DNA from: an uncultured Oscillospiraceae bacterium
GTDB taxonomy: Bacteria > Bacillota > Clostridia > Oscillospirales > Oscillospiraceae
Reading direction: 5' to 3'
DNA: 60,228 nt
NCBI GenBank assembly: GCA_947589545.1
Contig: CANQBA010000017.1
Location: 1 to 60,228 of the forward strand
A program made the position numbers and the translations under genes. Under the pieces are notes generated by a model. It was not told where the DNA came from. It ran no database searches and saw nothing but the letters and a program-made list of their open reading frames with translations. Numbering within the stretch: the first letter of the stretch is position 1; each line of letters starts with the position of its first letter. Below, in pieces: positions 2,745-15,900 of this stretch.

Positions 2745-4124
2745 TCAAATTCCCAGCAGGAGCCTGGCCACCTGGAAGTAGATAAGCAAACTCAGGGCGT
2801 CCACGATGGTGGTGATGAAGGGGCTGGCCATCACCGCCGGGTCGAAGCCCAGCTTCTTGGCCAGGAGCGGGAGCGTACAGCCCACAAGCTTTGCGCAGAC
2901 GATGGTGAAGGCCAGGGTGATGCAGATCACCAGATTCACCGTCACCGTCACGGAGGTGTTGTGCATCAGCCACACGTCCACCAGCTGGATCTTCAGGAAA
3001 TTCACCACCGCCAGGGAGACGGCGCACAGGACTGCCACCCGCAGCTCCTTCCACACCACCCGGAAGAAGTCGGAGAACTCCAGATCCCCCAGGGACAGGG
3101 CGCGGATGACCGTGACGGACGCCTGGGAGCCGGTGTTGCCGCCGGTGTCCATCAGCATGGGGATAAAGGCCGTCAGCGCCACCCATTTGGCCAGGGCGCT
3201 CTCAAAGGAGCTGATGATAAGGCCGGTGAACGTGGCGGAAACCATCAACAGCAGCAGCCAGGGGATGCGGGATTTCCAGATCTCAAAGGGCGAGAGCTTC
3301 AGATAGGGCTTGTCCGTGGGCATGATGGCGGCCATCTTCTCGATATCCTCTGTGGCCTCCTCCTCCATGACGTCGATGGCGTCGTCTACGGTGACGATGC
3401 CCACCAGGCGCGCCTCCTTGTCCACCACCGGCAGGGCCGACAGGTCGTACTTGGAGAAGGTGTTGGCCACCTCCTCCTGGTCGTCGGTGGTGGTGACGGA
3501 GATGGTATCCGTCCCCATGATCTCGGTGATCTGGGTATCGTCCTCGGCCAGAAGCAGGGATTTCAGGGTCACATACCCCACAAGCTTCCTGTTTTTGTCC
3601 GTCACATAGCAGGTGTAGATAGTCTCCTTGTCCACCGCGCCCCGGCGGATGCGCTTGATGGCCTCCTCCGCCGTCATCTCCGGCCGCAGGGAGACGTACT
3701 CCGTGGTCATGATGGAGCCGGCGGAGTCCTCCGGGTAATTCAAAAGCTCGTTGATGGTGCGGCGCATCTCCGGGTCGGCGGATTTGAGGATCCGCTTCAC
3801 CACATTGGCCGGCATCTCCTCGATCAGATCCACCGCGTCGTCCACGTAGAGCTCGTCCACCACGTCCTTCAGCTCCGCGTCGGAAAAGCCCCGGATCAGG
3901 AGCTCCTGCTCCTCCGGATCCATCTCGATAAATGTCTCCGCCGCCAGCTCCTTGGGCAGGAGCCGGAACATCAGCGGCAGCCTGTTCTCCCCCAGCTCCC
4001 CCAGCACCCCGGCGATGTCCATGGGCTGCATGGTGACAAAAATGTCCCGGAGTGTGGCGTATTTCTTGTTTTCGATCAGCGCCTCCAGGGTGGAGGATAA
4101 GATCGTCGTATTTGTCTCTGCCAT
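2745..4124 (-). CDS. mgtE: MgtE magnesium transporter
   Basis: A 459-residue Mg2+ channel/transporter of the inner membrane, the usual family length. The N domain of helical repeats (residues about 15-130) is followed by two CBS domains (about 135-255, with SIMTTEYVSL and IVTVDDAIDVMEEEA) that sense cytosolic Mg2+. The five-helix pore domain runs from about 285 to 459. The family signature GGNTGSQAS opens the second membrane segment and the pore aspartate lies in the conserved FDPAVMASPF region. The ATG at 4124 sits behind GGAG. It is a single gene on its strand, with a 320-bp upstream region that may be a regulatory leader. Confidence 0.95.
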   Translation of the reverse strand: MAETNTTILSSTLEALIENKKYATLRDIFVTMQPMDIAGVLGELGENRLPLMFRLLPKELAAETFIEMDPEEQELLIRGFSDAELKDVVDELYVDDAVDLIEEMPANVVKRILKSADPEMRRTINELLNYPEDSAGSIMTTEYVSLRPEMTAEEAIKRIRRGAVDKETIYTCYVTDKNRKLVGYVTLKSLLLAEDDTQITEIMGTDTISVTTTDDQEEVANTFSKYDLSALPVVDKEARLVGIVTVDDAIDVMEEEATEDIEKMAAIMPTDKPYLKLSPFEIWKSRIPWLLLLMVSATFTGLIISSFESALAKWVALTAFIPMLMDTGGNTGSQASVTVIRALSLGDLEFSDFFRVVWKELRVAVLCAVSLAVVNFLKIQLVDVWLMHNTSVTVTVNLVICITLAFTIVCAKLVGCTLPLLAKKLGFDPAVMASPFITTIVDALSLLIYFQVARLLLGI

Positions 4125-4360
4125 TTACCTTGTCTCCTTTCATATAACAGCGTTTTCCCGCCGCGCCGGGATCCGCCAAGGAACCAAGGCACTATGGATC
4201 GTTAACTGTAAGACCCCACGCGGGCCCTACGCCGTTCTCGACCCACTGTGCCCGTACTGCCCGCGTCCATCGTCTCACCTCACAGAACCATTTTTCCGGC
4301 CTCTGCCGTACTATTTAATTTACACCATTTGCCTCACTAAGTCAACCCCGCGAAAGGGCT
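4125..4360 (-). promoter_or_regulatory. Possible structured leader of mgtE
   Basis: The region upstream of mgtE has no gene but a strong folding potential on the minus strand. A long-range pairing CTGT..GAGAC with GTCTTACAG (4206-4214 against 4272-4285) encloses a GCGGGC / GCCCGC stem, and an upstream word TTAGTGAGGC resembles the TTAGGTGAGGC start of M-box Mg2+ riboswitches. I could not line up the rest of the M-box consensus, so this is a guess at a Mg2+-responsive leader, not an identification. Confidence 0.3.
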
Positions 4361-4444
4361 TCCAACGGATATTTTTTGCCGAAAAGCGCAGTTCATACGC
4401 ATACCCGGCGGCGTCTTCGGGAAAGCTCTCTCCGAGGTGATCTT

Positions 4445-4651
4445 ATGCTCTACAACGAGCTTTACAACGACGGGCTTCCCCTGGGCTTCGGCATGGTTCT
4501 GGCCTCCAACGCGGTGGCCATGAACCGGTTCTCCGCACTGAACCAGCGCCAGCGCGAGGAGCTCATCGCCCGCGCCCACGGCGTCAGATCCCCGGAGGAG
4601 ATGCAATATCTCGTCTCCGAATTCGGCAAAAACGGGCTGGGGATCCTGTGA
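4445..4651 (+). CDS. Small conserved-looking protein of unknown function
   Basis: A 68-residue protein whose start I place at the ATG at 4445, behind GAGGTGAT; the longer frame from 4376 has a poor site and an odd basic extension. It begins with a hydrophobic aromatic segment (LYNELYNDGLPLGFGM), then has a helical middle with LNQRQREELIARA, and ends in LVSEFGKNGLGIL. It stops 2 bp before the convergent regulator gene. No function can be assigned. Confidence 0.55.
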   Translation: MLYNELYNDGLPLGFGMVLASNAVAMNRFSALNQRQREELIARAHGVRSPEEMQYLVSEFGKNGLGIL

Positions 4652-4653
4652 AC

Positions 4654-5736
4654 CTACTCCCCCTCCGTCCGCAGCTGGCGGCGCACCCGATTCAGGTGGC
4701 GCTCAAAATGGCCCCGGTCGATGAACCGGGCCAGTACATACTGGTCAAATACCGGCACCGGGCAGGAATAAAATCCCAGCTTCTCCTGGTAGAGCCTGAA
4801 AAGCTCGTCCGGCAGGATCATGTACCCGATGCGCATGGACGGCGCCAGGGAGTGGGAAAAGGTGTTCAGATAGACCACCCTCCCGCCGCGATCCATGGAG
4901 AAAAGGGGCTCCTGGGGCCTCCTGGCCGGGGAAAATTCCGAATCGAAATCGTCCTCCACCACATACCGGTTCCCCCTGGCCGCCCAGTCCAAGTACTCCC
5001 GCCGTTTCTCGTGGGAGGCGGTGATGCCCGTGGGGAAGCTGTGGTAGGGCGTGACGTGCAGGATATCCGCGTCCGTGGCCGCCAGGGCCCGGGAGCTGAC
5101 CCCGTCCCCGTCCAGGGGCAGGAGGCGGCAGGCCGCGCCCATGGACTCGTAGACCTTGCGGATCTTGGCGTACCCCGGCTCCTCCACGGCGAAGATCCGC
5201 TCCCGGCCAAAGAGCTGCGTCAGCATCCCGTAGAGGTATTCCGCGCCGGAGCCCACGATGACCCGCCCCGGCTCCACCCGCATCCCCCGGTAGCGCCGCA
5301 GAAAGGCCGCGATGGCCCGCCGCAGCTCCGCACACCCGAAGGCCGGCGGCTTGGCCAGCAGCTTCTCCCCCCGCTCGGAGATGACCTCCCGCATGATCTT
5401 CCACAGCGCCGCGTACCGGAAGCCGTAGTCCGTCCCGGCCTCCGTCTCCTCCTCCAGGGGCTCCCCCGCCGTCTCCGGCGTCCTGGGCGCGGCCTGGCCC
5501 AGACGCGCCGCGAAATAGCCGCTGCGCTCCCGGCTGGTGACATATCCCTCGTCGATGAGGCACCTGTACGCCCCATCCACCGTAATGACGCTGACGCCCA
5601 GGTGCTCCGCCAGCGTCCTCTTGGAGGGCAGGCGGCTCCCCGGCTCCACGGCCCCGGAGCGTATGTCCTCCCGGATCTGCCGGTAAAGCCGCAGATACAG
5701 GGGCCCCGTGCCCTCCTTCAAATCATAGGTCAACAT
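4654..5736 (-). CDS. MocR/PdxR-type GntR regulator with aminotransferase-like domain
   Basis: A 360-residue fusion of an N-terminal GntR winged helix (residues about 10-80: LPSKRTLAEHLGVSVITV) and a fold-type I aminotransferase domain (about 95-355). Members such as GabR and PdxR bind PLP and control vitamin B6 or GABA genes. The divergent ECF S-component gene, 92 bp away, is the obvious target. The PLP-binding lysine expected in the family motif TFSKxLAPSxRxGY is His295 here (TFSHSLAPSMRIGYM), so the usual internal aldimine cannot form. Other PLP-pocket features remain (DDFDSEF). The regulator type is secure; vitamin B6 as effector is inferred from family and neighbour. Confidence 0.88.
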   Translation of the reverse strand: MLTYDLKEGTGPLYLRLYRQIREDIRSGAVEPGSRLPSKRTLAEHLGVSVITVDGAYRCLIDEGYVTSRERSGYFAARLGQAAPRTPETAGEPLEEETEAGTDYGFRYAALWKIMREVISERGEKLLAKPPAFGCAELRRAIAAFLRRYRGMRVEPGRVIVGSGAEYLYGMLTQLFGRERIFAVEEPGYAKIRKVYESMGAACRLLPLDGDGVSSRALAATDADILHVTPYHSFPTGITASHEKRREYLDWAARGNRYVVEDDFDSEFSPARRPQEPLFSMDRGGRVVYLNTFSHSLAPSMRIGYMILPDELFRLYQEKLGFYSCPVPVFDQYVLARFIDRGHFERHLNRVRRQLRTEGE

Positions 5737-5787
5737 TTGGTTATAAAAACTTCTCCTTTTTTGGTGATTTTCATATGCCCAAAAGCG

Positions 5788-5816
5788 ATTATAATAGGGA
5801 CAATTCCACTTGTCAA
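5788..5816 (-). promoter_or_regulatory. Consensus promoter of the MocR-like gene, overlapping the divergent start region
   Basis: On the minus strand TTGACA (5811-5816) and TATAAT (5788-5793) are 17 bp apart. A plus-strand TATAAT at 5790-5795 overlaps it without a good -35 box, as expected for a divergent gene that needs the activator. The two promoters would exclude each other. Confidence 0.75.
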
Positions 5817-5828
5817 GGAGGAAATCCC

Positions 5829-6341
5829 ATGAAATCGAAAGACATCAAAAAACTCACCCTCACCGCCATGCTGATGGCCATGAATATCGTGCTGAGCATG
5901 GAGATCCTGTCCATCCCCGTCCCCGGCGGACATCTGTACGCCAACGACATCATCATCTGCACGGCGGCGCTTCTGCTGGATCCCTTCTGCGCCTTTGTGG
6001 TGGGCGGCGTCGGCGCCTTTTTGGGGGATCTCTTATTCTACCCCGCGCCCATGTACGTCTCCCTGGTGACCCACGGCCTTCAGGCGGTGGCGATCTCCCT
6101 GCTGGCCCACAAGCTCCTGGGCGGCAAAAAGCCGGTGCTCTCCTCCACCGTCGCCATAGCCCTGGGCGCCGTCATCATGGTGGTGGGCTACACCCTGGGC
6201 CGCGCCTACATCTACTCCACCCCGGAATACGCCGTGACCAAGCTGCCCTTCCAGATCCTCCAGGCGCTCCTGGGCTTTATCGCCATCCCCCTCACCTACG
6301 CCTGCGGCATCAAAAAGGCGTATGAGAAGATCATGAAATGA
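5829..6341 (+). CDS. ECF transporter S component, probably for vitamin B6
   Basis: A 170-residue integral membrane protein with about six hydrophobic segments, the size and pattern of substrate-binding S components of energy-coupling-factor importers. The start at 5829 is chosen for its AAGGAGG site 8 nt upstream; the longer frame lies across the promoter. It has the N-terminal motif LTLTAMLMAMNIVLS, where a short AxxxA-type helix contacts the shared EcfT. The ATPases and EcfT are not in the window and must be shared from elsewhere. The divergent MocR/PdxR-type regulator suggests a pyridoxine or pyridoxal substrate (PdxU-like); substrate choice is inference. Confidence 0.8.
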   Translation: MKSKDIKKLTLTAMLMAMNIVLSMEILSIPVPGGHLYANDIIICTAALLLDPFCAFVVGGVGAFLGDLLFYPAPMYVSLVTHGLQAVAISLLAHKLLGGKKPVLSSTVAIALGAVIMVVGYTLGRAYIYSTPEYAVTKLPFQILQALLGFIAIPLTYACGIKKAYEKIMK

Positions 6342-6380
6342 GCTTTCGAAAAGCTCTGACAGGCTTTTTCCGGCATACAT
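6341..6380 (+). repeat. Fragment of the structured repeat family (copy E)
   Basis: Directly after the stop codon of the S-component gene, in the gene's orientation, a hairpin GAAAAGC / GCTTTTTC with a loop containing TGAC is followed by CCGGCAT. It matches the first hairpin of the copies at 30722, 46539 and 56003, which all lie after stop codons. Only this hairpin is recognisable. Confidence 0.45.
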
Positions 6381-6543
6381 CCGCCCGTGTATAGGGAATT
6401 GTGAACCTGCCCATATAGTGTTTTCGTTCAGGAGTCCGTGGGGAACACGGGCTCCTGAAGCGCTTATACGGCATCCCCGTCCATTTCGTCTATTCGGGGC
6501 ATGTCGTCTGATCCCGGGAGTGGATTTGGTAAGAACAGGGATG
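6381..6543. other. Intergenic region with a strong hairpin at 6427-6459
   Basis: A 14-bp stem TTCAGGAG.CCGTG / CACGG.CTCCTGAA with a GGGAA loop stands 85 bp upstream of the regulator promoter. No T-run follows on either strand, so it is not a standard terminator. Its place upstream of a signalling operon makes an RNA element or a protein-binding palindrome possible. Confidence 0.5.
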
Positions 6544-6572
6544 TTGACATGCGTAATTTTCTTTGTTAAAAT
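6544..6572 (+). promoter_or_regulatory. Promoter of the two-component operon
   Basis: TTGACA at 6544-6549, 17-bp spacer, TAAAAT at 6567-6572. It would give a 5' leader of about 45 nt before the TTG start at 6623. Confidence 0.8.
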
Positions 6573-6622
6573 ATAAAGTTATCACCTATCACCGCGGTTA
6601 GATCAGAAAAGGGGCGAAGACC

Positions 6623-7369
6623 TTGCGGATTGCATTATGCGACGATGAAAAAGCATACCACGAAACGGTCAAAACCATGATCGGACAGTACAAGCAGGCC
6701 AATCCTGACCGCTCGCTTTCGCTGTCGTCCTTCTATTCCGGGAAGGAGCTTTTGAACCATGTGGACGAATACGGCGGCTTCGACCTCTATATCCTCGATT
6801 GCATCATGCCTGAGATGGACGGCATAGAGCTCGGGACGGCCCTGCGCAGGCGCGGCGATCAGGGGATGTTCTTCTTTCTGACCACATCTCCCGACTTTGC
6901 GCTGGACTCCTACCGGGTGGACGCCCTTGATTACCTCTTAAAGCCTGTGGATAAGCAGCTCTTCTTCCGCAGTCTCGACAAGGCGTTTTCCTCCCTCTCC
7001 CGAACCGCGCGGGAGATGGTTTCCGTCAAAACCGCGGGCAGTATCCGTGTCCTTCCCGTTGCCGATATCCGGTACGCGGAACGTACCGGAAAACGGATCT
7101 GCTACTATATGACGGACGGCAGCGTTATACCCGGCATCACCTTCAACGGCTCCTTTAACGACGCGGTATCGAACCTCCTCTCCCATAGCGGGATGCTCCT
7201 TGTGGGTTCCTCCTTCGTGGTAAATCTGGCCCACGTCACGGAAGTAACGAAAACGGACATGGTTTTAACGGGAAGCCTGCGCGTTCCCATCCCGCGCCGT
7301 ATATATGACGCCGTCAAGAGGGAATGGGCGGCCTTTTGGCTGAACGGAGGAAAATACCGTGCTTTTTGA
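6623..7369 (+). CDS. LytTR-family response regulator
   Basis: A 248-residue AgrA/LytR-type regulator. The receiver domain (1-125) has the acidic pair CDDE, phospho-acceptor Asp59 (LYILDCIMPEMDG), the Thr/Ser switch (LTTSP) and Lys in YLLKPVD. A LytTR DNA-binding domain fills residues about 135-240 (IRYAERTGKRICYY, SFVVNLAHVTEV). The start is TTG behind AAGGGG. Its last 11 bp overlap the first kinase gene, so the three genes form one operon. It would bind paired direct repeats at target promoters. It is the only regulator here for two kinases. Confidence 0.93.
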   Translation: MRIALCDDEKAYHETVKTMIGQYKQANPDRSLSLSSFYSGKELLNHVDEYGGFDLYILDCIMPEMDGIELGTALRRRGDQGMFFFLTTSPDFALDSYRVDALDYLLKPVDKQLFFRSLDKAFSSLSRTAREMVSVKTAGSIRVLPVADIRYAERTGKRICYYMTDGSVIPGITFNGSFNDAVSNLLSHSGMLLVGSSFVVNLAHVTEVTKTDMVLTGSLRVPIPRRIYDAVKREWAAFWLNGGKYRAF

Positions 7370-8492
7370 GGATAATCCCGCTTTTTTCGTCCTGAAAGTC
7401 CTGATCACCCTTGCGGGCACGGTCGCCATGATAGCGTCCACCACCAGCTTTAAGATGGTTCGGCCGTTGGCGAAGCTTGTCTCTACCGGGGCCACACATA
7501 TCCTGGTTTCCCTGTACATTTCCGCCACAGTTACCCTGATGAATACCGCCCTGCGCGGAACCGGGCTGTCGGATATCCTGCTGCGCCTGCTTGCCTACCT
7601 GCTGGCGGCGCTGTTTGATTTTCACTTTGTGCGACGTATCTGGCTCGATTTTGCCGGCATGATCAAAAAGGGCTGGGGCGTCCTCTCCCTGATCCCCTGC
7701 GCGTTCATCATCCTTTCCGTGACAGTCGCCCTATACCCGGAGCGTTATACGAAACGGCCCTTAAGCATCGTTACCATCTACCTGCTGGGCGCCGTCATTA
7801 TTGCCGTCTACTTTTCCATCGGGAGCTACCTGTCCATGCAGTACGGCAGAGCGCAGTCGGAGCGGAACAGGGAAATCCTGGAGCTCCAGCTGGTAAACAT
7901 ACGGCGGGAAAACGCCGATCTTGAGGCCCTTGAAAAGCAAACGAGGATCCTTCGGCATGACCTACGCCACATTCTCACAACAGTCGCCGCCCTCGCGGAG
8001 GGCGGCGACACGCAGGCGATCCTTGATTTTGTGGAAAATACCGCGGGACTGTCCGAAGAGGCTCCGGAGCCCCGCCGGTACTGCGACGATCCCCTTCTGG
8101 ACGCCACGATCTCCGGTTATCTGGCGTCCGCAAGGGAGGCGGGCATCGCGCTTGAGACATCTGTTTCCGTTCCGAACGTCCTTCCGGTGGACTCTTCCGA
8201 GCTTTCCGTCTGCTTTGCCAATATGCTGGAATGTGCCATCCATGCCTGTATGAGGCTTCCTCAGATGGAGCGGAAGATGAGCGTCCGGTGCGTCCAAAGT
8301 CCGAAGCTGACGATGGATGTCGTTTTTCCCTTTCACGGTAAAACAGCTTTCGATAAAAAGGGCCTTCCAAAACCGCCGGACGGAGGCTCAAACAGCAGTC
8401 TCCGCTCCATAGCGGCCTTCTGCGAGAGGCACAACGCCGTTTATGCGTTTACGGCTGAAGACGGCCGGTTCCGGATCGCGGTGGCAGTATAA
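7359..8492 (+). CDS. AgrC-like GHKL sensor protein with intact His but degenerate ATP-binding domain
   Basis: A 377-residue membrane sensor with a GTG start behind GGAGG. Five or six N-terminal membrane helices (residues about 5-160, with GWGVLSLIPCAF) precede a coiled helix and the dimerisation box LRHDLRH, with phospho-acceptor His200. The C-terminal GHKL domain is damaged. The Mg2+-binding Asn of the N box is Cys292 (ANMLECAIHAC), the IxN element reads VVF, and the GxGxG box is GGSNSSL from Gly342. It is homologous to the next gene. By itself it should not bind ATP normally, but it can still be a phosphate acceptor. The signal is unknown; no processed peptide gene is seen nearby. Confidence 0.88.
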   Translation: MLFEDNPAFFVLKVLITLAGTVAMIASTTSFKMVRPLAKLVSTGATHILVSLYISATVTLMNTALRGTGLSDILLRLLAYLLAALFDFHFVRRIWLDFAGMIKKGWGVLSLIPCAFIILSVTVALYPERYTKRPLSIVTIYLLGAVIIAVYFSIGSYLSMQYGRAQSERNREILELQLVNIRRENADLEALEKQTRILRHDLRHILTTVAALAEGGDTQAILDFVENTAGLSEEAPEPRRYCDDPLLDATISGYLASAREAGIALETSVSVPNVLPVDSSELSVCFANMLECAIHACMRLPQMERKMSVRCVQSPKLTMDVVFPFHGKTAFDKKGLPKPPDGGSNSSLRSIAAFCERHNAVYAFTAEDGRFRIAVAV

Positions 8493-8509
8493 GGGGAAGG
8501 GAGAAGGGC

Positions 8510-9796
8510 ATGATTTTTGATAACGATACCGCATATCAGGCATACAGGATCCTTGTCTCCATCTTCGGCACGCTGGGCATGGTGGTTTCCGTCAGCAGAC
8601 TGAAGGAAACCAAAAGGAAAAATCTGCTGATTATCGGCGGATACGCTGTTTATGCCATTGTTTTTTCCGTCCTCTGCATACGTTTCCTGGGCTTCCTGTC
8701 TTTTCTGCGCGGCGCCATCTTCACGATTTCCATCCCCGGAGTCGTCATAACCTTTCTGATCGCGGACGAGTCCCTTTCAAGGCATATTTTCTTCTGCCTG
8801 ACACAGCTTCTCATATCCCTTTACCTGATCGTCGGCGTGACGCAGCTCAGTTCGCTGTTCGGCGGCGGCCCAGCGACGGATCCCCTTCTGCTTTTTGCCG
8901 CCTATCTGGCCGTCATTTTACTGGATGTTTTCCTCCTGCGCCCTGTCTTTTTAACGGTCGCGGACACGGTTACCGGGGGCTGGGGGATCCTCGCCATGAT
9001 CCCCTGCTCCTTTTTCGTTCTCACCATGGTGCAGGCGCTCTACCCGGCGCATTATACGCAGAACGCGTCCTTTCCCACCCTGTTTGTCCTGTCCGGCGCG
9101 GTTCTTCTCATCATCTACTATGCCATCTTTCAATACCTGTGGCTCCAGTACCGATACCGGATGGAGGAACAGGATCGCGATCTTTTGAGACTGCAGATCG
9201 GGAACATCAGGAAACAGGCAAAGGACAACGAAAGAAAGGCGCGGGAGCTGAGGGACGCACGGCGGGACGTCCGGCAGATGCTGTCTGATATCGCCGGGCT
9301 TGCGCGGGAAGGAAACGCCGAGGCGATCCTTGCGTACATAAAAGAAGCGTCCATGCGGATCGACATCGCCGCGCCCGTCCAGTATTGTAACGATCCCATC
9401 TTAAACGCCACCCTCGCCGCGTATTTAGGCCGCGCGAAGCGCTCCGGCATCGCGGTGGAGGAGCGGCTCTCCTTTCCGGAGACGCTGCCCGTGGATTCCG
9501 CCGAGCTTGCGATCTGCTTTTCCAACGCCCTGGAAAATGCCATAAACGCCTGTGAGCGGCTCCCGGAAGATCAGCGGAAGATCGTCATCCGGTGCATCCA
9601 TGAGCCGCAGTTCATGTTTGAGATCAAAAACGCCTGCCGCGGACGGATCTCCTTTGGGCGGAACGGACTCCCGCAATCGCGTAAACCCGGCCACGGGATC
9701 GGCACGCGCTCCATTATGGCCTTCTGCGAAAAGCATAACGCCTTTTATTCGTTCAGCGCGGAGGACGGCTGGTTCAAGCTTGTGATCGCGTTATGA
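8510..9796 (+). CDS. AgrC-like GHKL sensor kinase with intact ATP site but no phospho-acceptor His
   Basis: A 428-residue paralogue of the preceding sensor, 17 bp downstream. About six membrane helices fill residues 1-215 and share the GWGILAMIPCSFF motif. The ATP-binding half is complete: N box NALENAINAC (Asn339 and Asn343), IKN element, and G box GHGIGTRSI (Gly394, 396, 398). In the helix where the partner has RHDLRH this protein has RRDVRQ, so Arg252 replaces the phospho-acceptor and Gln256 the second His. It could therefore only phosphorylate another protein, most plausibly the partner kinase. Its end overlaps the convergent cstA gene by 6 bp. Confidence 0.9.
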   Translation: MIFDNDTAYQAYRILVSIFGTLGMVVSVSRLKETKRKNLLIIGGYAVYAIVFSVLCIRFLGFLSFLRGAIFTISIPGVVITFLIADESLSRHIFFCLTQLLISLYLIVGVTQLSSLFGGGPATDPLLLFAAYLAVILLDVFLLRPVFLTVADTVTGGWGILAMIPCSFFVLTMVQALYPAHYTQNASFPTLFVLSGAVLLIIYYAIFQYLWLQYRYRMEEQDRDLLRLQIGNIRKQAKDNERKARELRDARRDVRQMLSDIAGLAREGNAEAILAYIKEASMRIDIAAPVQYCNDPILNATLAAYLGRAKRSGIAVEERLSFPETLPVDSAELAICFSNALENAINACERLPEDQRKIVIRCIHEPQFMFEIKNACRGRISFGRNGLPQSRKPGHGIGTRSIMAFCEKHNAFYSFSAEDGWFKLVIAL

Positions 9797-11230
9797 GAGC
9801 TCATGCTTTTTTGCGCGTCCCGAACGGATCGCATACAGCAAAAATACGGTAAACAGGAGAGCCGCCGCCGCGACGCCCGCCGGATAGGCTATTTTGGTGG
9901 AAAGCCGGAAGCCCTCGTCCGCCATGAGGATGTATGTGACGGAAACCGCGCTCATAAACGATGCCGGGACCGCCGAAATCAGGGAATACCATCCTTTTTT
10001 CGCGTTTTGGACCAGATAGACCGCCATCGCCCACAGCACGATCATCGCCAGCGTCTGATTCGACCAGGAAAAATACCGCCAGATGATGTCAAAATCGATC
10101 TGCGTCAAAACAGCGGCTGTCCCGATCAGAGGGATCGCTAAAATTAGCCTTTTTCCCAGGCTTGCCTGATCCAGCTTCAGCCAATCCGCCAGGGTGAGCC
10201 GCGCGCTCCGGAACGCCGTGTCCCCCGTAGAGATCGGGCAGACGACCACGCCGATGACAGCCAGCGCCCCGCCGGCCTTTCCCAGCACGCCCACCGAAAT
10301 ATCATACACCACGCCCGACTGCCCCCGCGACGCCAGCGCCCCCAGCAGGCCCTCTGTATTGCCATAGAATCCCAGGCCCGCCGCCGCCCATACCAGGGCG
10401 ATCACGGCCTCCACGAGCATTGCGCCGTAAAAAACCGCGCGTCCCTGCTTCTCGTGCTCCATGCACCTTGCCATCATGGGCGACTGCGTGGAATGAAAGC
10501 CCGATACCGCGCCGCAGGCTACCGTGACGAACATATACGCCCAAATCGGCTTCCCTTCCGGATGCAGGTTGGCAAAGGTCTCGGAGGTGAGCTCCGGAAG
10601 GGTATACCCTCCGAAAACAAGGCCGCCGACGATCCCAGCCGCCATAAACATAAGCACCACGCCGAACACGGGATAGAGCTTTCCGATCACCTTGTCAATG
10701 GGAAGGAGCGTCGCCAGCACATAATAGGCCATGATGACGACGATCCAGAATGTGGTGTTCATAAAACCCGGCGTAAGGCTCGCAAGGAGCGTGGCCGGGC
10801 TCGTGGTAAATACCGCGCCAACGCATACAAGCAGGACGACCGAAAAAATACGCATGACCTGCTTGGCGGCTTTGCCCAGGTATTTCCCGACGATCTCCGA
10901 TATGGACGCGCCGTCATTTCTGACGGACGCCATCCCGGACAGATAATCATGCACGGCTCCGCCAAGTATGGAGCCAAGCACGATCCACAGGAATACCACC
11001 GGGCCAAAGACCGCCCCCATCAGCGGCCCGAAAATCGGCCCCGTTCCGGCTATATTGAGAAGCTGGATCAAAAACACCCGCCATTTTTTCATGGGCGTAA
11101 AGTCCACCCCATCCGGGTGGGCCATCGCCGGCGTGGGCTCGTCGCCGGGAGCGACGATCCTTTCAACCAGGCGCCCATAGAGGTGATATCCCGCCAGCAA
11201 AACAAGCAGGGCGATAAGAAATGTGATCAT
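9791..11230 (-). CDS. cstA: CstA-family carbon-starvation carrier (pyruvate/peptide transporter)
   Basis: A 479-residue polytopic membrane protein, the short form of the family (E. coli CstA is about 700). It keeps conserved family segments such as LLNIAGTGPIFGP, GGAVHDYLSGM and STQSPMMARCMEHE. E. coli members carry pyruvate or peptides with protons. The gene lies 22 bp behind the 5'-nucleotidase gene and shares its direction, so it may be last in that transcript. It is convergent with the LytTR operon. In enterobacteria a LytTR-type system (BtsSR) controls a CstA relative (BtsT), which makes a regulatory link plausible but unproven here. Confidence 0.9.
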   Translation of the reverse strand: MITFLIALLVLLAGYHLYGRLVERIVAPGDEPTPAMAHPDGVDFTPMKKWRVFLIQLLNIAGTGPIFGPLMGAVFGPVVFLWIVLGSILGGAVHDYLSGMASVRNDGASISEIVGKYLGKAAKQVMRIFSVVLLVCVGAVFTTSPATLLASLTPGFMNTTFWIVVIMAYYVLATLLPIDKVIGKLYPVFGVVLMFMAAGIVGGLVFGGYTLPELTSETFANLHPEGKPIWAYMFVTVACGAVSGFHSTQSPMMARCMEHEKQGRAVFYGAMLVEAVIALVWAAAGLGFYGNTEGLLGALASRGQSGVVYDISVGVLGKAGGALAVIGVVVCPISTGDTAFRSARLTLADWLKLDQASLGKRLILAIPLIGTAAVLTQIDFDIIWRYFSWSNQTLAMIVLWAMAVYLVQNAKKGWYSLISAVPASFMSAVSVTYILMADEGFRLSTKIAYPAGVAAAALLFTVFLLYAIRSGRAKKHELS

Positions 11231-11252
11231 ATTTTTTCCCCCGTCTTTATCT

Positions 11253-12947
11253 TTATTTGATCAATATACGTCCCTGTGGCAGAGCGTACTCCTCTCCCAC
11301 CGTTCCGTTCAGTCCATCCATGAGATAAGTCATAAGTATCTCATAATCTATCATTCCCTCGTCGACTGTCAGCTCATTGTCCATGAACATATTCAGCCCG
11401 TCCCCGCCTTCCTTGATCAGGTAATTGTGGGACGCCACAGTATATATCTCATCCGGCACAAGCGCCGTATAGCTTCCGTCCTCCCCGAGGATCATGACGT
11501 CCTTTACTCGCCGGCTGTCCCCGCAGGAGAGGAAATTGCCCTGCTCATCCGTCTCCACCGTGGAGTCCACAGAGGTGTCGACGGTATATTTAAGCCCCGA
11601 CACCTGCAAAAAGCCTCCGTTTTCCCCCAGGGCGTTTTCCCCGTCGTCCGCGTCGGGCAGGCAGGAGCGGCTGGCCATCTCCAGGGCGTCCAGTATTTCC
11701 TGTCCCGTGGCTTTCACCACGCAGAGCGTATTGCCGTAGGGGTGCACGCTCAGGATATCCCCATAGGTGACTTCTCCCGCGGAAATATCCGCCCGGATGC
11801 CGCCGCCGTTCACAAGCGCGATATCCGCCCCCGATACGGCCCTGTACGCGTCCGCGCAGAGATCCCCCAGATTGGTCTCCCTGTTCCGTATGAGACGCAT
11901 ACCGGAATCGGAAGACGTTGTAAGCGCCACCTCCGATACGGCGACGGTTTTTGTCAGCTCGGCTTCAAACCTCTCCTCCATGCTCTCTATGCAGCCGGCC
12001 ATCTCGCTGTCTGTCTCCGGGTACGTCCCGATCAGCCCTGTCTGGATATTCCCGCCGGCGGTAATGGTAAGGCGGCCGATATTGCAAAGCTTCGTGCCCG
12101 TGGAGGACAAAAGCACATTCTCCCCATCCGCGTTTTTCACAATATCACAGGGAATCACGCTGTGGGAATGGCCGTCCAGCACGGCGTCGATCCCCCTTGT
12201 ATTGGCGATCAGCTCAGGGGAGGTAAACGGCGAGGACGACGCGTCCGTCCCAAGATGCGCGAGAACCACCACATGATCCGCGCCGTCCTTCACACAGGCG
12301 TCCACGTTTTCCTGCACGCGCCGGTATAATTCCTCCCCGCTCTCCCCATAGAAATCGTATACATAGTTCCCGTTCTCATCGCAGAAGTATGCCGGAACGG
12401 ATTTTACGATGCTCTCCGGCGTGGACACCCCGATAAAGGCCACCTTCACCTTGCCGTAGGATACGATCTTATACGGCAGGAGCCGGGATAGGGGCGCCGC
12501 GTCCTCCGTCCCCGTATAGCGAATATTGCAGCCAAGATACTGAGCGCCCGTCATCTCCATAAGACGGCCCAGCTGCTCCATCCCATAGTCAAATTCGTGG
12601 TTTCCAAGCACCGCGAAGTCATATCCCGCGCGGTTCATAAGCTCCGCCGGATATTCCCCGTCGGAAACAGCTCCGATCACGTCCCCCTGCAGGGCGTCCC
12701 CACAGTCCACCAGCGTGACATAAGGGGTATTTTGCTCACACCACCGCTTGTATGCCACAAGTCCGGCATAGCCGATGTCCTCATCCACGGCACAGTGCAC
12801 ATCATTGGTGTATAAAATGACGATGTCGTCCGCCTTCGCCTTACCCGTTAAAACGATCACAGCGGCGCACACGCCCAAAATCAGCACGGCCGCCAGTATA
12901 ACGGCCAGAAGGCGCCGCTGTTTTTTCTTATTTGTCCTGATATCCAT
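11253..12947 (-). CDS. Membrane-anchored 5'-nucleotidase / metallophosphatase
   Basis: A 564-residue extracellular enzyme of the UshA/YfkN type that removes phosphate from nucleotides or related esters. I use the ATG at 12947, preceded by GGAGAGG, not the upstream TTG at 12962, whose codons make up that ribosome site. An N-terminal basic stretch and one hydrophobic helix (residues about 13-33) anchor it. The metallophosphatase domain follows with LYTNDVHC, DCGDALQGD, GNHEFDYG, and GHSHS. The C-terminal nucleotidase domain (from about 325) has ETNLGDLCADAY and NGGGIRADI. It lies between the ABC transporter and cstA genes, suggesting nutrient scavenging. Confidence 0.9.
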   Translation of the reverse strand: MDIRTNKKKQRRLLAVILAAVLILGVCAAVIVLTGKAKADDIVILYTNDVHCAVDEDIGYAGLVAYKRWCEQNTPYVTLVDCGDALQGDVIGAVSDGEYPAELMNRAGYDFAVLGNHEFDYGMEQLGRLMEMTGAQYLGCNIRYTGTEDAAPLSRLLPYKIVSYGKVKVAFIGVSTPESIVKSVPAYFCDENGNYVYDFYGESGEELYRRVQENVDACVKDGADHVVVLAHLGTDASSSPFTSPELIANTRGIDAVLDGHSHSVIPCDIVKNADGENVLLSSTGTKLCNIGRLTITAGGNIQTGLIGTYPETDSEMAGCIESMEERFEAELTKTVAVSEVALTTSSDSGMRLIRNRETNLGDLCADAYRAVSGADIALVNGGGIRADISAGEVTYGDILSVHPYGNTLCVVKATGQEILDALEMASRSCLPDADDGENALGENGGFLQVSGLKYTVDTSVDSTVETDEQGNFLSCGDSRRVKDVMILGEDGSYTALVPDEIYTVASHNYLIKEGGDGLNMFMDNELTVDEGMIDYEILMTYLMDGLNGTVGEEYALPQGRILIK

Positions 12948-12968
12948 TCTTTTCCTCTCCAAGCGGTC

Positions 12969-15900
12969 TTAAAATACAACGGTCACCGTGTTGACTCCGC
13001 CGGCATAGGCGTGAGCGCTGCTCCTGGTTCGGCTGACGGCCAGAGCCGCGCTCAGCCGGTCTCCCTGGGTCAGCGGATCGAACGCCTCCCCCTTCCAGCG
13101 GATGACAGCTTCACATTCGCTCCCGTCCTCACTGCAAAGGGCGTCGAAGCTCAGACTGCACCCGTCGTCCGGCAGGACCGGCAGGATGCTGGTCACGCAC
13201 AGCTCTTCAAAAATCTGCTGGTACTTGAGCGACTGCTGTGCGCCCAGCAGCTGCTTGCGGGCAAAGCGGTCGATGTCCGTGGCCGCGCCGATAAAGTCAA
13301 ACTCCTTGGAGGCAATATCGAGATGGAGGGTCTTCAGGCGGTGGACAAACGCCCGGCAGCGGTCGGTCTTCGGGTGATCAAACACCTGCTCCGGCGACCC
13401 CTCCTCGTAAACAACGCCTCCGTCCATGTAAAAGACCCGCGTGGATACATCCCGGGCGAACTTCATCTCATGGGTGACGATCAGCATGGTCAGCCCCTGC
13501 TCGGCCAGGCTGCGTATGACTGCCAGCACTTCTCCTACCATGGTGGGATCCAGCGCGCTGGTGGGCTCGTCAAAGAGCACGATCTCCGGCTGCATGCCCA
13601 GCGTGCGGGCAATGGCGACACGCTGTTTTTGACCGCCGGAAAGCTCATCCGGATAGTTGAGCGCCTTTTCCGCCAGGCCCACGCTGGCCAGCAGTCGCAT
13701 GCCCCGCTCGTAAGCCTGCTGCGGGGTGCGGCCAAGCAGCTCCACCTGCCCCAGCATAATATTTTCGATCACCGTCAGATGGGCGAACAGGTTAAAGCTC
13801 TGGAAGACCATGCCCATGCGGCGGCGCACGGCGCCAAGCTGCGCCGGCTTCACGCCGGTCACCGGCTGACCGAACACCCGGATCTGTCCTTCCGTCGGCG
13901 TTTCCAGCCGGTTGATGCATCGCAGAAGGGTGCTCTTTCCCGTACCGGAAGGCCCGATGATGGAGATAACATCCCCCCGGTTTATGACGGCGTTGACGTC
14001 CTTCAAGGGAGTCGCGTTGGGAAATACCTTCTTCAAATGGGAGATGGTGATCACCGGTTCCCCGTTTGGCGCGGCCTTGGGTTCCTCCGGGATCTCCGCC
14101 AGGGAGATGTTCCTGTCGATCCCCTTGAGCTCCCTCTGCCGGCGGCGGGGATCGATCTTCCTTTCCGCCAGTCCCAGCAGAAGTGTCAGGCACCATGCCA
14201 GCAGGAAATACAGAACCGCCGTCAAAATCAGCGGGAAAAACGCCTCAAAGGTACGGCTGCGGATAAGGTCGGTGGCCTTGGTCAGATCCTGCACCGTGAT
14301 ATACCCCACCACGGACGTCATTTTTATCATGGAAATAAATTCGCCCTTGTATACCGGCAGGATATGCCGCGCCGCCTGGGGCGCGATGATCTTTGTAAAG
14401 GTCTTGACCCGTCCAAAGCCCATGGCGGACGCCGCCTCCCACTGACCGGCGTCCACGGCGTCGATGCCGGTGCGGATCATCTCGGAGACATAGACGCCAA
14501 AGTTGACGGAGAAGCCGATGATGGCCACGACGATCCCGTTAAGTCTCGTGCCGGCGAATACGATGTAGAACAGCACCATCAGCAGCACCAGCACCGGGAT
14601 CCCCTGGACGAGCCTCACAAAGGCCGCCGTGACCCCGGAGGCGATCCTGTTGCGGCTGCGGCGCAGCAGGCACAGGCCGAAGCCCAGCACCGTGCCGAAC
14701 AAAGCCGAAAAGATCGATATGACAAACGTGACGGCAAGGCCGGAGAGAATCATTTTCCACCGGTTTTCCTGGATGAAGTTCTTATAGAAGCTGTTTTTCA
14801 GCCCGTCCCAGAAGCCCGTTTTTTCCGTCTCGACGGCCTGGCCCATATCTTCGCCCCGAACAACGAGCATCATGCCGCCCACATAGTGGGAGGTGGGGAA
14901 ATCTATGCTCTCCTTCCGCTCGTCGGTAATGCTCATGGCGCCGGATACGATATCCGCCCGTCCGCTGACCAGCATCTGGATCAGCGAATTGAAGGTGCTT
15001 TGGGTGATCTCCAGCTTCATCCCCAGCTCCTTGGCGATAAGCGCGACCAGCTCCACCTCATATCCAAGGGATTGCCCGTTGCCGCCCACATAGCTCATGG
15101 GCTCCAGGGTGGAGTCATGGGCATAATGCAGGGTGCCGTTGGGGGCGTCGTATTCCCCCACGTCGATGGTCTTTTTGCTGTCGTCGGCGCTCGTCCATTT
15201 TTCCCGAAGGGCGTCCAGCGTGCCGTCCCCGGCGTATCTCTCAATGATGGCGCTGATCTTATCCGTCAGCGGACTGTCCTTTTGAAGGCCGAGGCCGTAG
15301 GTGTCGGGAGCCACCGTTTCGGGGAATACCGCCAGATCGGGCTGCCTCGCCGCCGCCAGCCGGGCCACGGGCATATCGTGCGCCACGGCGTCAACTATGC
15401 CCGACTGAAGCGCCAGGAATGAAGCGGAAGCGTCGTCGTAATACTTAAATTCACAGCCGCTTACGACGGCGCTCACAAGCTCGTCCGAAATGCTGCCCGA
15501 CATAACACCCACGGTCGTACCCGCGAAATCTTCAAGCGTTTTGAAGCGCGCCTCAAATTGCCCGTGGTTTGCCACCACCGCCACCACGCCGCCGGTGTAA
15601 TTCGGCTCGGCAAAATTCACGCTTTCCGCCCGCTCCGCCGTCACAGTCATACCGGTGGCCGATACGTCGTATGTACCGGTGGCAAGCCCCGCGAAAATAG
15701 ACGCGATCTCCGCGCCGGTCACCTCCAGCCCGTAGCCGCGGGCCTTGCAGAAGCGAACCATGATATCGATATCATATCCGACGACCTGATTGTCCTTGAT
15801 ATAGCTGAAGGGCGCCACGTCGGTTTTTACCGCCATTCGGATGACGCCGTTCTCCGCCGGGAAGGATGTCCAATCCTCCACCACCTTTTTACTTTCATCA

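Follow-up and report, generated by a model that had tools for sequence, protein, structure and literature searches.

A tandem pair of membrane sensor kinases with reciprocal lesions, probably one divided histidine kinase, in an uncultured Oscillospiraceae bacterium and its relatives

Histidine kinases act as homodimers as a rule, and the complementation of one half-dead mutant by another is a laboratory trick, familiar from EnvZ. A kinase divided between proteins has a precedent in the mycobacterial three-protein system Rv0600c/Rv0601c/TcrA. In the Fas system of group A Streptococcus, according to those portions of the report that deal with its two kinases (PMC12675982, 2025), FasB and FasC form a heterodimer by two-hybrid assay; the kinase domain of FasC is dispensable (FasC 1-286 works), FasC His246 is essential, and the kinase domain of FasB is needed. 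The DHp histidines of FasB are still present in that account; H241 is not needed, and H284 is untested in the paper. For Rhodobacter sphaeroides, the passages on CheA3 and CheA4 in PMC3591291 state that neither protein autophosphorylates alone. The pair described here would work like FasB/FasC and CheA3/CheA4, and the principle is therefore known already. What is new is that two membrane kinases in tandem have undergone reciprocal losses, the stages of which are preserved across species.

The window analyzed is the whole stretch of 60,228 nucleotides. Positions 6623 to 9796 encode one LytTR regulator and, behind it, two membrane kinases of the GHKL kind that are paralogues of each other; the order is regulator-HK1-HK2 (Table 1). 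The kinases are 40% identical and of a type that we take to be HPK10/AgrC. The traits of a GHKL/LytTR sensor kinase (multi-helix membrane N terminus, RHD H box, Pfam PF14501, and LytTR partner) are found in the pair jointly and by homology, and in neither protein alone. The comparative set, from a group of gut bacteria, comprises the window and 14 further loci; the 15 have a common ancestry and cannot be counted as separate events. The regulator matches Pfam Response_reg (3.5e-14) and LytTR (5e-06), the Asp of its DCxMP motif is kept in 15/15 regulators, and the 11-nt overlap between its 3' end and the start of HK1 is the same at all 15 loci. In an upstream alignment of these loci, inspected by eye, TTGAC[ACT] occupies the aligned place in eight, TTGAT in three, and neither in four; a search of the same alignment for a regulator-binding site common to the loci brought out the promoter alone. 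A gene for a CstA-family transporter adjoins the triad at 10 of the 15 loci, and we would guess that it is a target of the regulator. In the BtsSR system of Escherichia coli, a LytTR regulator is reported to control a CstA-family pyruvate transporter; BtsSR differs in having a single, LytS-type kinase.

Table 1. Features of the regulator-HK1-HK2 locus and its surroundings, in window coordinates
Feature	Position	Strand	Details
Likely sigma-A promoter of operon	6544..6572	+	TTGACA, 17-nt spacer, TAAAAT, extended -10 (TGnTAAAAT); consensus match only
LytTR response regulator (receiver + LytTR DNA-binding domain)	6623..7369	+	TTG start; phospho-acceptor Asp59
HK1, membrane sensor kinase paralogue	7359..8492	+	GTG start, 377 aa; His present, ATPase domain degenerate
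HK1 His200, predicted phospho-acceptor	7956..7958 (CAT)	+	RHDLRH; RHD in 15/15 HK1
HK1 Cys292 at second N-box Asn position	8232..8234 (TGT)	+	N box NMLECAIHAC; Asn in 83/83 outgroup kinases
HK1 Phe323 at IxN Asn position	8325..8327	+	VVF; Asn in 83/83 outgroup kinases
HK1 ruined G box GGSNSSLRS	8382..8408	+	GGSNSSL replaces GHGIGT; middle G in 82/83 outgroup kinases
HK2, membrane sensor kinase paralogue	8510..9796	+	428 aa; ATP motifs intact, phospho-acceptor His absent
HK2 Arg252 at phospho-acceptor position	9263..9265 (CGG)	+	RRDVRQ; H in 83/83 outgroup kinases
HK2 intact N box NALENAINAC	9524..9553	+	both Asn kept in 15/15 HK2
HK2 intact G box GHGIG	9689..9703	+	HGxG kept in 15/15 HK2
CstA-family transporter	9791..11230	-	tail to tail with HK2; Pfam CstA 2.4e-54

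The residues on which a preliminary description of this DNA had built (His200, Cys292, VVF, and GGSNSSL in HK1; Arg252, NALENAINAC, and the further ATP elements IKN and GHGIGTRSI in HK2) are each present, and the complementary lesions that it saw in them are a real pattern. At the functional level the pattern is reciprocal at 15/15 loci, and not one of the 15 HK1 or 15 HK2 has the His and a complete ATP site in one polypeptide, whereas none of 83 related (outgroup) kinases lacks the His, either N-box Asn, or the IxN Asn, and only one of them lacks the G-box middle G. The check that it proposed, a comparison of orthologous pairs in related genomes, thus came out in its favor, with three HK1 lacking the ATPase domain altogether, and the 14 further loci rule out chance or one bad genome. 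That tandem GHKL pairs are generally divided is ruled out for the two such pairs seen among the outgroup (L097 and L105), which are intact in all motifs. Of 34 genomes of the same genus, not all of them complete, 6 carry both kinase genes, and none of the others carries an intact single gene; in one of the genomes, G024, a C-terminal scar of HK2 is all that is left, and the closest regulator there shows 33% identity.

HK1 keeps an open frame at all 15 loci, and it is the ATP site that has been lost. The window HK1 has no Pfam match to the GHKL ATPase domain at E 1, and each of the 12 HK1 with such a domain has lost at least one ATP element. The IxN Asn is missing in 11 of the 12 and the G-box middle G in 10; the G box is altered in 11, the exception being L055, with its three glycines. 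The preliminary description had stressed the N-box Asn; Cys292 is indeed there, but this is a less constant lesion than the other two, the second N-box Asn being replaced by C, S, or T in six HK1 and kept in the other six. Pfam bit scores for the domain are graded (L063, 37.9; L064, 32.9; L053, 24.8; L058, 22.8; L054, 17.2), with no match in L052, L062, or the window and the domain itself gone in L059. In L059, L060, and L061, which form one clade, HK1 ends at 294 aa, just before the aligned start of the ATPase domain, with RHD kept and 64, 64, and 70 nt, respectively, between HK1 and HK2; autophosphorylation by these HK1 alone is therefore not possible, and their HK2 partners keep NALENAVNAC, IEN, and GHGIG. 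Two HK1 count against a divided kinase: that of L063 has lesions confined to G-box residues, the two N-box Asn and the IxN Asn being in place, and that of L055 has lost the second N-box Asn and the IxN Asn with all G-box glycines in place. Judging from these motifs, some HK1 may have residual nucleotide binding. Crude hydropathy predicts seven helices in 12 of 15 HK1 (window, four; L055, six; L060, eight). Alone among the 15, the window HK1 also has an in-frame gap of 54 residues in its membrane part, which the preliminary description could not have seen; around this gap (window positions 7380 to 7520) no direct repeats were found.

HK2 is the converse case. In the window its GHKL ATPase domain matches PF14501 (E 1.5e-14), and the position of the lost His is occupied by Arg in 11 and Gln in 4 of the 15. 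The next residue, usually Asp, has been replaced by N, S, or G in five of the 15, which we count against a divided kinase; a drifting DHp domain fits a role in pairing only, but it also fits loss of all DHp function. Crude hydropathy predicts seven to eight helices in the four HK2 examined.

HK1 forms one clade in the tree (100/99), HK2 another (100/100), and the two jointly a third (100/100), which indicates a single duplication. Lesions on both sides predate the deepest split, L063/L064. Given the shared ancestry, the loss of the His in HK2 represents at least one event, not 15. Over 10 loci, dN/dS is 0.162 for the HK1 DHp domain, the lowest among six domains compared, and 0.265 for the HK1 ATPase (CA) domain; the corresponding values for HK2 are 0.241 and 0.179. 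The interaction contrast at the amino-acid level is 0.149 (95% range, 0.052 to 0.244; zero or below in 0.17% of 10,000 resamplings). Such crossed constraint, with HK1 conserving DHp and HK2 conserving CA, fits a division of labor. Against it stand the three pairs of the CA-less clade, in which the HK1 DHp domain (dN/dS, 0.21 to 0.31) is not the slowest part, the membrane part being at 0.09 to 0.19.

How does the pair compare with the described systems? The preliminary description likened the layout to Fas and knew of no such division of labor there; the findings of PMC12675982 given above, a FasB/FasC heterodimer in which the kinase domain of FasC can be spared but its His246 cannot, bear on this point. 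Fas also has two multi-helix sensor kinases and one ComE-like regulator per locus, a likeness in layout and, we propose, in working, and the CA-less HK1 of L059 to L061 (membrane part plus DHp) have the make-up of the engineered FasC 1-286. On the same partial account, the differences are that the His of HK2 is gone in 15/15 whereas FasB retains its DHp histidines, that the truncation of FasC was made in the laboratory whereas that of HK1 is natural, and that the gene order is fasBCAX and not regulator-HK1-HK2. The output of Fas runs through the small RNA FasX; an Rfam scan of window positions 4000 to 13000, covering described families, gave no match. CheA3/CheA4, as presented in the relevant passages of PMC3591291, likewise place the phospho-acceptor on one protein and the ATPase on the other, which here is read from sequence alone; they are, however, CheA proteins from a cytoplasmic chemotaxis cluster, with P1 on one side of the division and P3/P4 on the other, and not GHKL/LytTR membrane kinases. 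Synechocystis Hik36/Hik43 are also a split histidine kinase with one regulator, and they interact by two-hybrid, but the source, so far as it describes them, makes them a CheA homologue in two distant genes and not a tandem paralogous membrane pair (PMC7656254). Sensor kinase heterodimers with one modulating or inactive partner are likewise described for GacS/RetS (PMC12675982) and ChrS/HrrS (PMC9491836), where the partners also homodimerize and the passages describing them contain no reciprocal loss. Counting against a divided kinase is the CA-truncated ChrS of Corynebacterium glutamicum, for which the relevant passage reports no significant heterodimerization by two-hybrid (PMC9491836).

In total, the gene order, the reciprocal lesions at 15/15 loci, the single duplication, the clade of CA-less HK1, and the crossed constraint, all of them features of the sequences, support the division of labor between HK2 and HK1 read in the preliminary description: phospho-acceptor and ATPase lie on different proteins at 15/15 loci, the HK1 ATPase domain being absent in 3 of them. 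We put at roughly 85% the probability that regulator, HK1, and HK2 are a three-protein signaling system with one histidine kinase divided between tandem paralogues. In the proposed mechanism, HK1 would contribute a membrane sensor and the DHp domain whose His200 takes and then passes on the phosphate; HK2 would contribute the sole working ATPase domain, together with a membrane sensor of its own and a DHp domain retained for pairing. The two would pair via their DHp domains, HK2 would phosphorylate His200 of HK1 in trans, and phosphorylated HK1 would in turn phosphorylate the LytTR regulator at Asp59. We infer the heterodimer, this direction of phosphate flow, and an obligate dependence of each kinase on the other. 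It further seems to us a reasonable bet that a homodimeric kinase became an obligate heterodimeric membrane receptor by reciprocal loss after one tandem duplication, such that two different sensor domains must meet before any phosphate flows (an AND gate). Living species would display the stages: intact outgroup pairs, loss of the His in one partner and of the G box in the other, loss of the IxN Asn and sometimes of the N box, and, in one clade, loss of the whole ATPase domain.

Both proteins descend from one ancestor that dimerized, as members of this family do, and HK2 retains a DHp domain. These points weigh against a sub-case of the divided kinase in which HK1 and HK2 are separate homodimers and cross-phosphorylation takes place in passing contacts, like that of CheA3 by CheA4, a stable HK1-HK2 dimer never being formed. 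Sequence cannot separate a heterodimer from transient contact, and the passages on CheA3/CheA4 call their contact dynamic (PMC3591291), whereas the Fas two-hybrid, in the portions of that report concerned with it, gives hetero- and not homodimers (PMC12675982). We regard this sub-case as unlikely. Slightly less likely still is a regulatory pseudokinase pair, with HK1 mainly a phosphatase or docking platform, HK2 an ATP-gated modulator, and the phosphate of the regulator coming from acetyl phosphate or another kinase. CA-less HK1, retaining DHp alone, would suit a phosphatase or scaffold, and in the passages on C. glutamicum the pseudokinase ChrS aids HrrS without a His of its own (PMC9491836), but such a pair would hardly keep RHD in 15/15 HK1 and the ATP motifs in 15/15 HK2, one per protein.

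Could HK1 instead bind ATP via an unusual pocket and autophosphorylate, with HK2 inhibiting it in the way that RetS inhibits GacS? The second N-box Asn kept in half of the 12 HK1 and the ATPase domains of L063 and L064, above the Pfam cut-off, lean this way; the IxN Asn lost and the G box altered in 11/12 each lean the other, and in L059 to L061 the absence of the domain makes it impossible. We consider this very improbable. That HK1 is a decaying, functionless gene and the window lesions noise is scarcely credible, for although its ATPase domain does decay and the window copy has the membrane-part gap, the frame is open with RHD in 15/15, the regulator overlap persists in 15/15, and the DHp domain is the most constrained of the six (0.21 to 0.31 even in the CA-less clade).

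Other searches bear on how singular the divided kinase is. In genome G673 (L175/L188), the upstream kinase has RRDMRRQ and its ATP motifs are intact; the downstream one has RHDMRHQ and runs off the end of its contig. What may be the rest of this downstream kinase is a fragment on another contig (L196), in which the N box is intact, IEN is present, and the G box reads GVG; we rejected a second independent division here, as these motifs suggest one-sided loss of the His and not a reciprocal pair. Relatives of the G673 kinase were found in 1 of 38 family genomes (E 1e-25) and 1 of 51 order genomes (E 1e-40), both being G673 itself. A profile of HK2/HK1 matched no solved structure at E 0.01, and three HK1 and two HK2 matched no NCBIfam family at E 0.01. 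Among titles and abstract starts, with subscription papers mostly outside coverage, we found no membrane kinase pair in which one partner had lost the His and the other the ATP site.

For this clade as a whole, the complementation of half-dead kinases seems to be the natural condition, and living genomes show the stages of the division. The Fas model, a heterodimer with one dispensable kinase domain, gains a natural counterpart in species from which that domain is absent. There is also a warning for annotation, in that the window HK1, missed by the Pfam ATPase model, could pass for a dead or truncated kinase. Does duplication followed by reciprocal loss produce a receptor with two inputs, and what does each partner sense? 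These questions are now testable.

The regulator, HK1 and HK2 of the window lie in tandem, and the two membrane GHKL sensor kinases are 40% identical across their aligned part. Read from the sequence, every residue that the preliminary description had named in them is where it was said to be, including His200 as phospho-acceptor in HK1 and Arg252 at the His position of HK2. A Pfam search (E 0.01) places the GHKL ATPase domain PF14501 at 15 places in the window's own genome, HK2 included, and HK1 is not among these matches. Elsewhere in the same genome, a kinase-like stretch (G000:C19:38635-39369) carries two in-frame stops and is perhaps a pseudogene.

Features of the triad locus in the window
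Feature	Position	Arrangement
Promoter-like site TTGACA/TAAAAT	6544-6572	
LytTR response regulator	6623-7369	Same direction as HK1 and HK2
HK1	7359-8492	Same direction as regulator and HK2; its start overlaps the regulator's 3' end
HK2	8510-9796	Same direction as regulator and HK1; 17 nt between HK1 end and HK2
CstA-family transporter gene	9791-11230	Tail to tail with HK2; 6-nt overlap with HK2 end

Scanning genome contigs with HK2 gave 14 loci, seven of them those of genomes G004, G018, G019, G021, G030, G129 and G314, and the order regulator-HK1-HK2 holds in all 14; with the window there are 15 distinct triad loci. Carriers among the 14 are labelled uncultured Oscillospiraceae, Lachnospiraceae, Clostridia, Ruminiclostridium, 'Roseburia hominis' and an Eubacteriales bacterium, and 12 have isolate names starting with 'Lapin'.

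Across these loci, the damage falls on opposite halves of the two kinases. The RHD of the H box is kept in 15/15 HK1, and each of the 12 HK1 with an ATPase (CA) domain has a loss in at least one of the N box, IxN element and G box (at least two in 11). Eleven of the 12 lack the IxN Asn (the exception is L063, in which the G box is the sole damaged element of the three) and 10 the middle Gly of the G box (L055 and L065 retain it); the second N-box Asn has become Cys, Ser or Thr in six and is Asn in six, and the first is lost in one (L062). The other three HK1 (L059, L060 and L061) end at 294 residues, just short of where the ATPase domain would start, and since only 64, 64 and 70 nt, respectively, precede HK2, the domain does not lie in another frame. 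Pfam scores for the HK1 ATPase domain decay from 37.9 bits (L063) through 32.9 (L064), 24.8 (L053) and 22.8 (L058) to 17.2 (L054, below the cut-off of 22), and no match was obtained in HK1 of L052, L062 or the window; besides the window's, this series covers eight of the other 14 HK1, counting L059, which is without the domain. HK2 has Arg (11/15) or Gln (4/15) at the His position, followed by Asp in 10, Asn in three, Ser in one and Gly in one, while none of the 15 has lost either N-box Asn, the IxN Asn or HGxG.

Related kinases provide the baseline. A search with an HK1-plus-HK2 profile (E 1e-25) returned 90 places, namely, six in triads, a scar in genome G024 and 83 others. We read 80 regions, two being triads (L095 and L096); the remaining 78 span 82 of the 83 other places and, with one neighboring kinase (L097, 9261-10928), give a sample of 83. 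In the alignment of this sample, drawn with a profile that would under-sample kinases without an ATPase domain and not those without the His, the His, both N-box Asn, the IxN Asn and the last Gly of the G box are each present in 83/83 and the middle Gly in 82/83. One baseline kinase (L162) has an apparent frame break past the IxN element; the kinase at the one remaining place, in G046, shows the His, the two Asn of the N box, the Asn of IxN and GxG; and both members of the tandem pairs L097 and L105 have all motifs intact. Separately, another GHKL kinase of G004 (L042, G004:C9, 5490-6913) is split over two overlapping reading frames, with its DHp (H-box domain) separated from its ATPase part, through either a frame break or an assembly error.

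In a tree of the 15 HK1, 15 HK2 and 18 outgroup kinases, HK1 (support 100/99) and HK2 (100/100) each form one clade and jointly form another (100/100), so that they stem from one duplication. The deepest pair of loci, L063/L064, already has lesions on both sides. On the regulator-plus-HK2 tree, loss of the ATPase domain takes one change and the HK1 N-box Asn at least four lost/kept changes, the latter a soft figure because few inner forks are firm (4 of 12 starred).

Do the two kinases also travel together? At E 1e-30, both were found in six of the 34 genomes of the window's genus, some of them incomplete, and no intact single kinase (HK1 or HK2 alone) in the remaining ones. Matches above 400 bits, the level of HK1 and HK2, occur at the order level (394 genomes) only in G000 (the window's genome), G129 and G314, plus the G024 scar, and at the class level (391 genomes) only in G000 plus that scar. 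The scar (L037, G024:C21, 6115-6591) is a C-terminal HK2 fragment, 79% identical, that adjoins CstA; because the site retains nothing of the regulator, of HK1 or of the remainder of HK2 and the best match to the triad regulator in G024 is 33% identical, the three genes were lost as one unit.

Selection was compared by dN/dS over ten loci (the window, L052-L058, L062 and L065; 45 pairs), with L063, L064 and L059-L061 omitted. Means for the DHp, CA and membrane parts are 0.162, 0.265 and 0.250 in HK1 and 0.241, 0.179 and 0.208 in HK2. The crossed contrast in amino-acid differences is 0.149 (95% interval, 0.052-0.244, a guide because the pairs share descent and are not independent), and 0.17% of 10,000 column resamplings give a value of zero or less. 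HK1 is constrained in its phosphate-carrying part and relaxed in its would-be ATP-binding part, and HK2 the opposite. Among the three pairs of the clade whose HK1 lack the ATPase domain, the HK2 CA domain evolves slowly (dN/dS 0, 0.11 and 0.12); the HK1 half of the pattern is not repeated there (HK1 DHp, 0.21-0.31, versus membrane part, 0.09-0.19).

The ATPase domain of a GHKL kinase binds Mg-ATP via the N and G boxes and phosphorylates the H-box His, either in cis or on the dimer partner. The HK1 of L059-L061, with no ATPase domain, are incapable of self-phosphorylation, and HK2, without the His, lacks a usual acceptor of its own; as both are kept together, a heterodimer is the simplest account. 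We posit that HK1 and HK2 form this heterodimer, that HK2 would phosphorylate His200 of HK1 in trans, and that the regulator would then accept this phosphate from HK1 on Asp59, a phospho-acceptor Asp present in 15/15 regulators. We put the probability of such a division of labor by trans-phosphorylation at about 85%.

There are precedents. In a study of Fas from group A Streptococcus (PMC12675982), FasB and FasC are reported to form heterodimers and no homodimers in two-hybrid assays, FasC 1-286, without the kinase domain, is functional from the native locus, FasC His246 and FasA Asp60 are required, and FasC is proposed to be a pseudokinase. In its mode of action the triad would work alike, its extra step being an HK2 without its own His. 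A second source (PMC3591291) describes CheA3/CheA4 of Rhodobacter sphaeroides as a characterized split kinase and finds that, of 42417 HisKA proteins, 1556 lack a HATPase domain. Given these two systems, the split histidine kinase is already known; what is new here is reciprocal loss in a tandem membrane GHKL pair, in graded stages.

Input and output may be considered briefly. HK1 of the window, alone among the 15, has a 54-residue in-frame gap in its membrane part, around which no direct repeats were found. A crude hydropathy prediction gives it four helices versus seven in 12 of the 15 HK1, and the gap spans two helices predicted in its relatives; in this species HK1 may therefore sense differently. 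On the output side, CstA adjoins HK2 in 10/15 loci (the window, L052-L056, L058, L061, L062 and L065) and was not found in the stretches examined around L057, L059, L060, L063 and L064; among loci without the HK1 ATPase domain, it is thus present at L061 and not found beside HK1 of L059 and L060. In Escherichia coli, a pyruvate transporter of the CstA family is reported to be under the control of LytTR regulators, and CstA as the triad regulator's target is our guess. The window's cstA starts 22 nt past a co-oriented 5'-nucleotidase gene and so may share its promoter. A more distant regulator-kinase pair with intact motifs (L110, G370:C1, 5842-10694) also lies near a CstA gene (65.8% identical), and an open reading frame between them carries DALTGLYNR, GGDEF-like by eye.

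Eleven additional kinases that contain an ATPase domain were read at the class level; 10 have the His and one, in G673, has Arg. The latter is the upstream member, with intact ATP motifs, of a separate tandem GHKL pair from another taxonomic order (L188, G673:C49, 1-2268), whose downstream member retains its H box and runs off the end of the contig. This one-sided loss of the His may show the beginnings of such kinase divisions.
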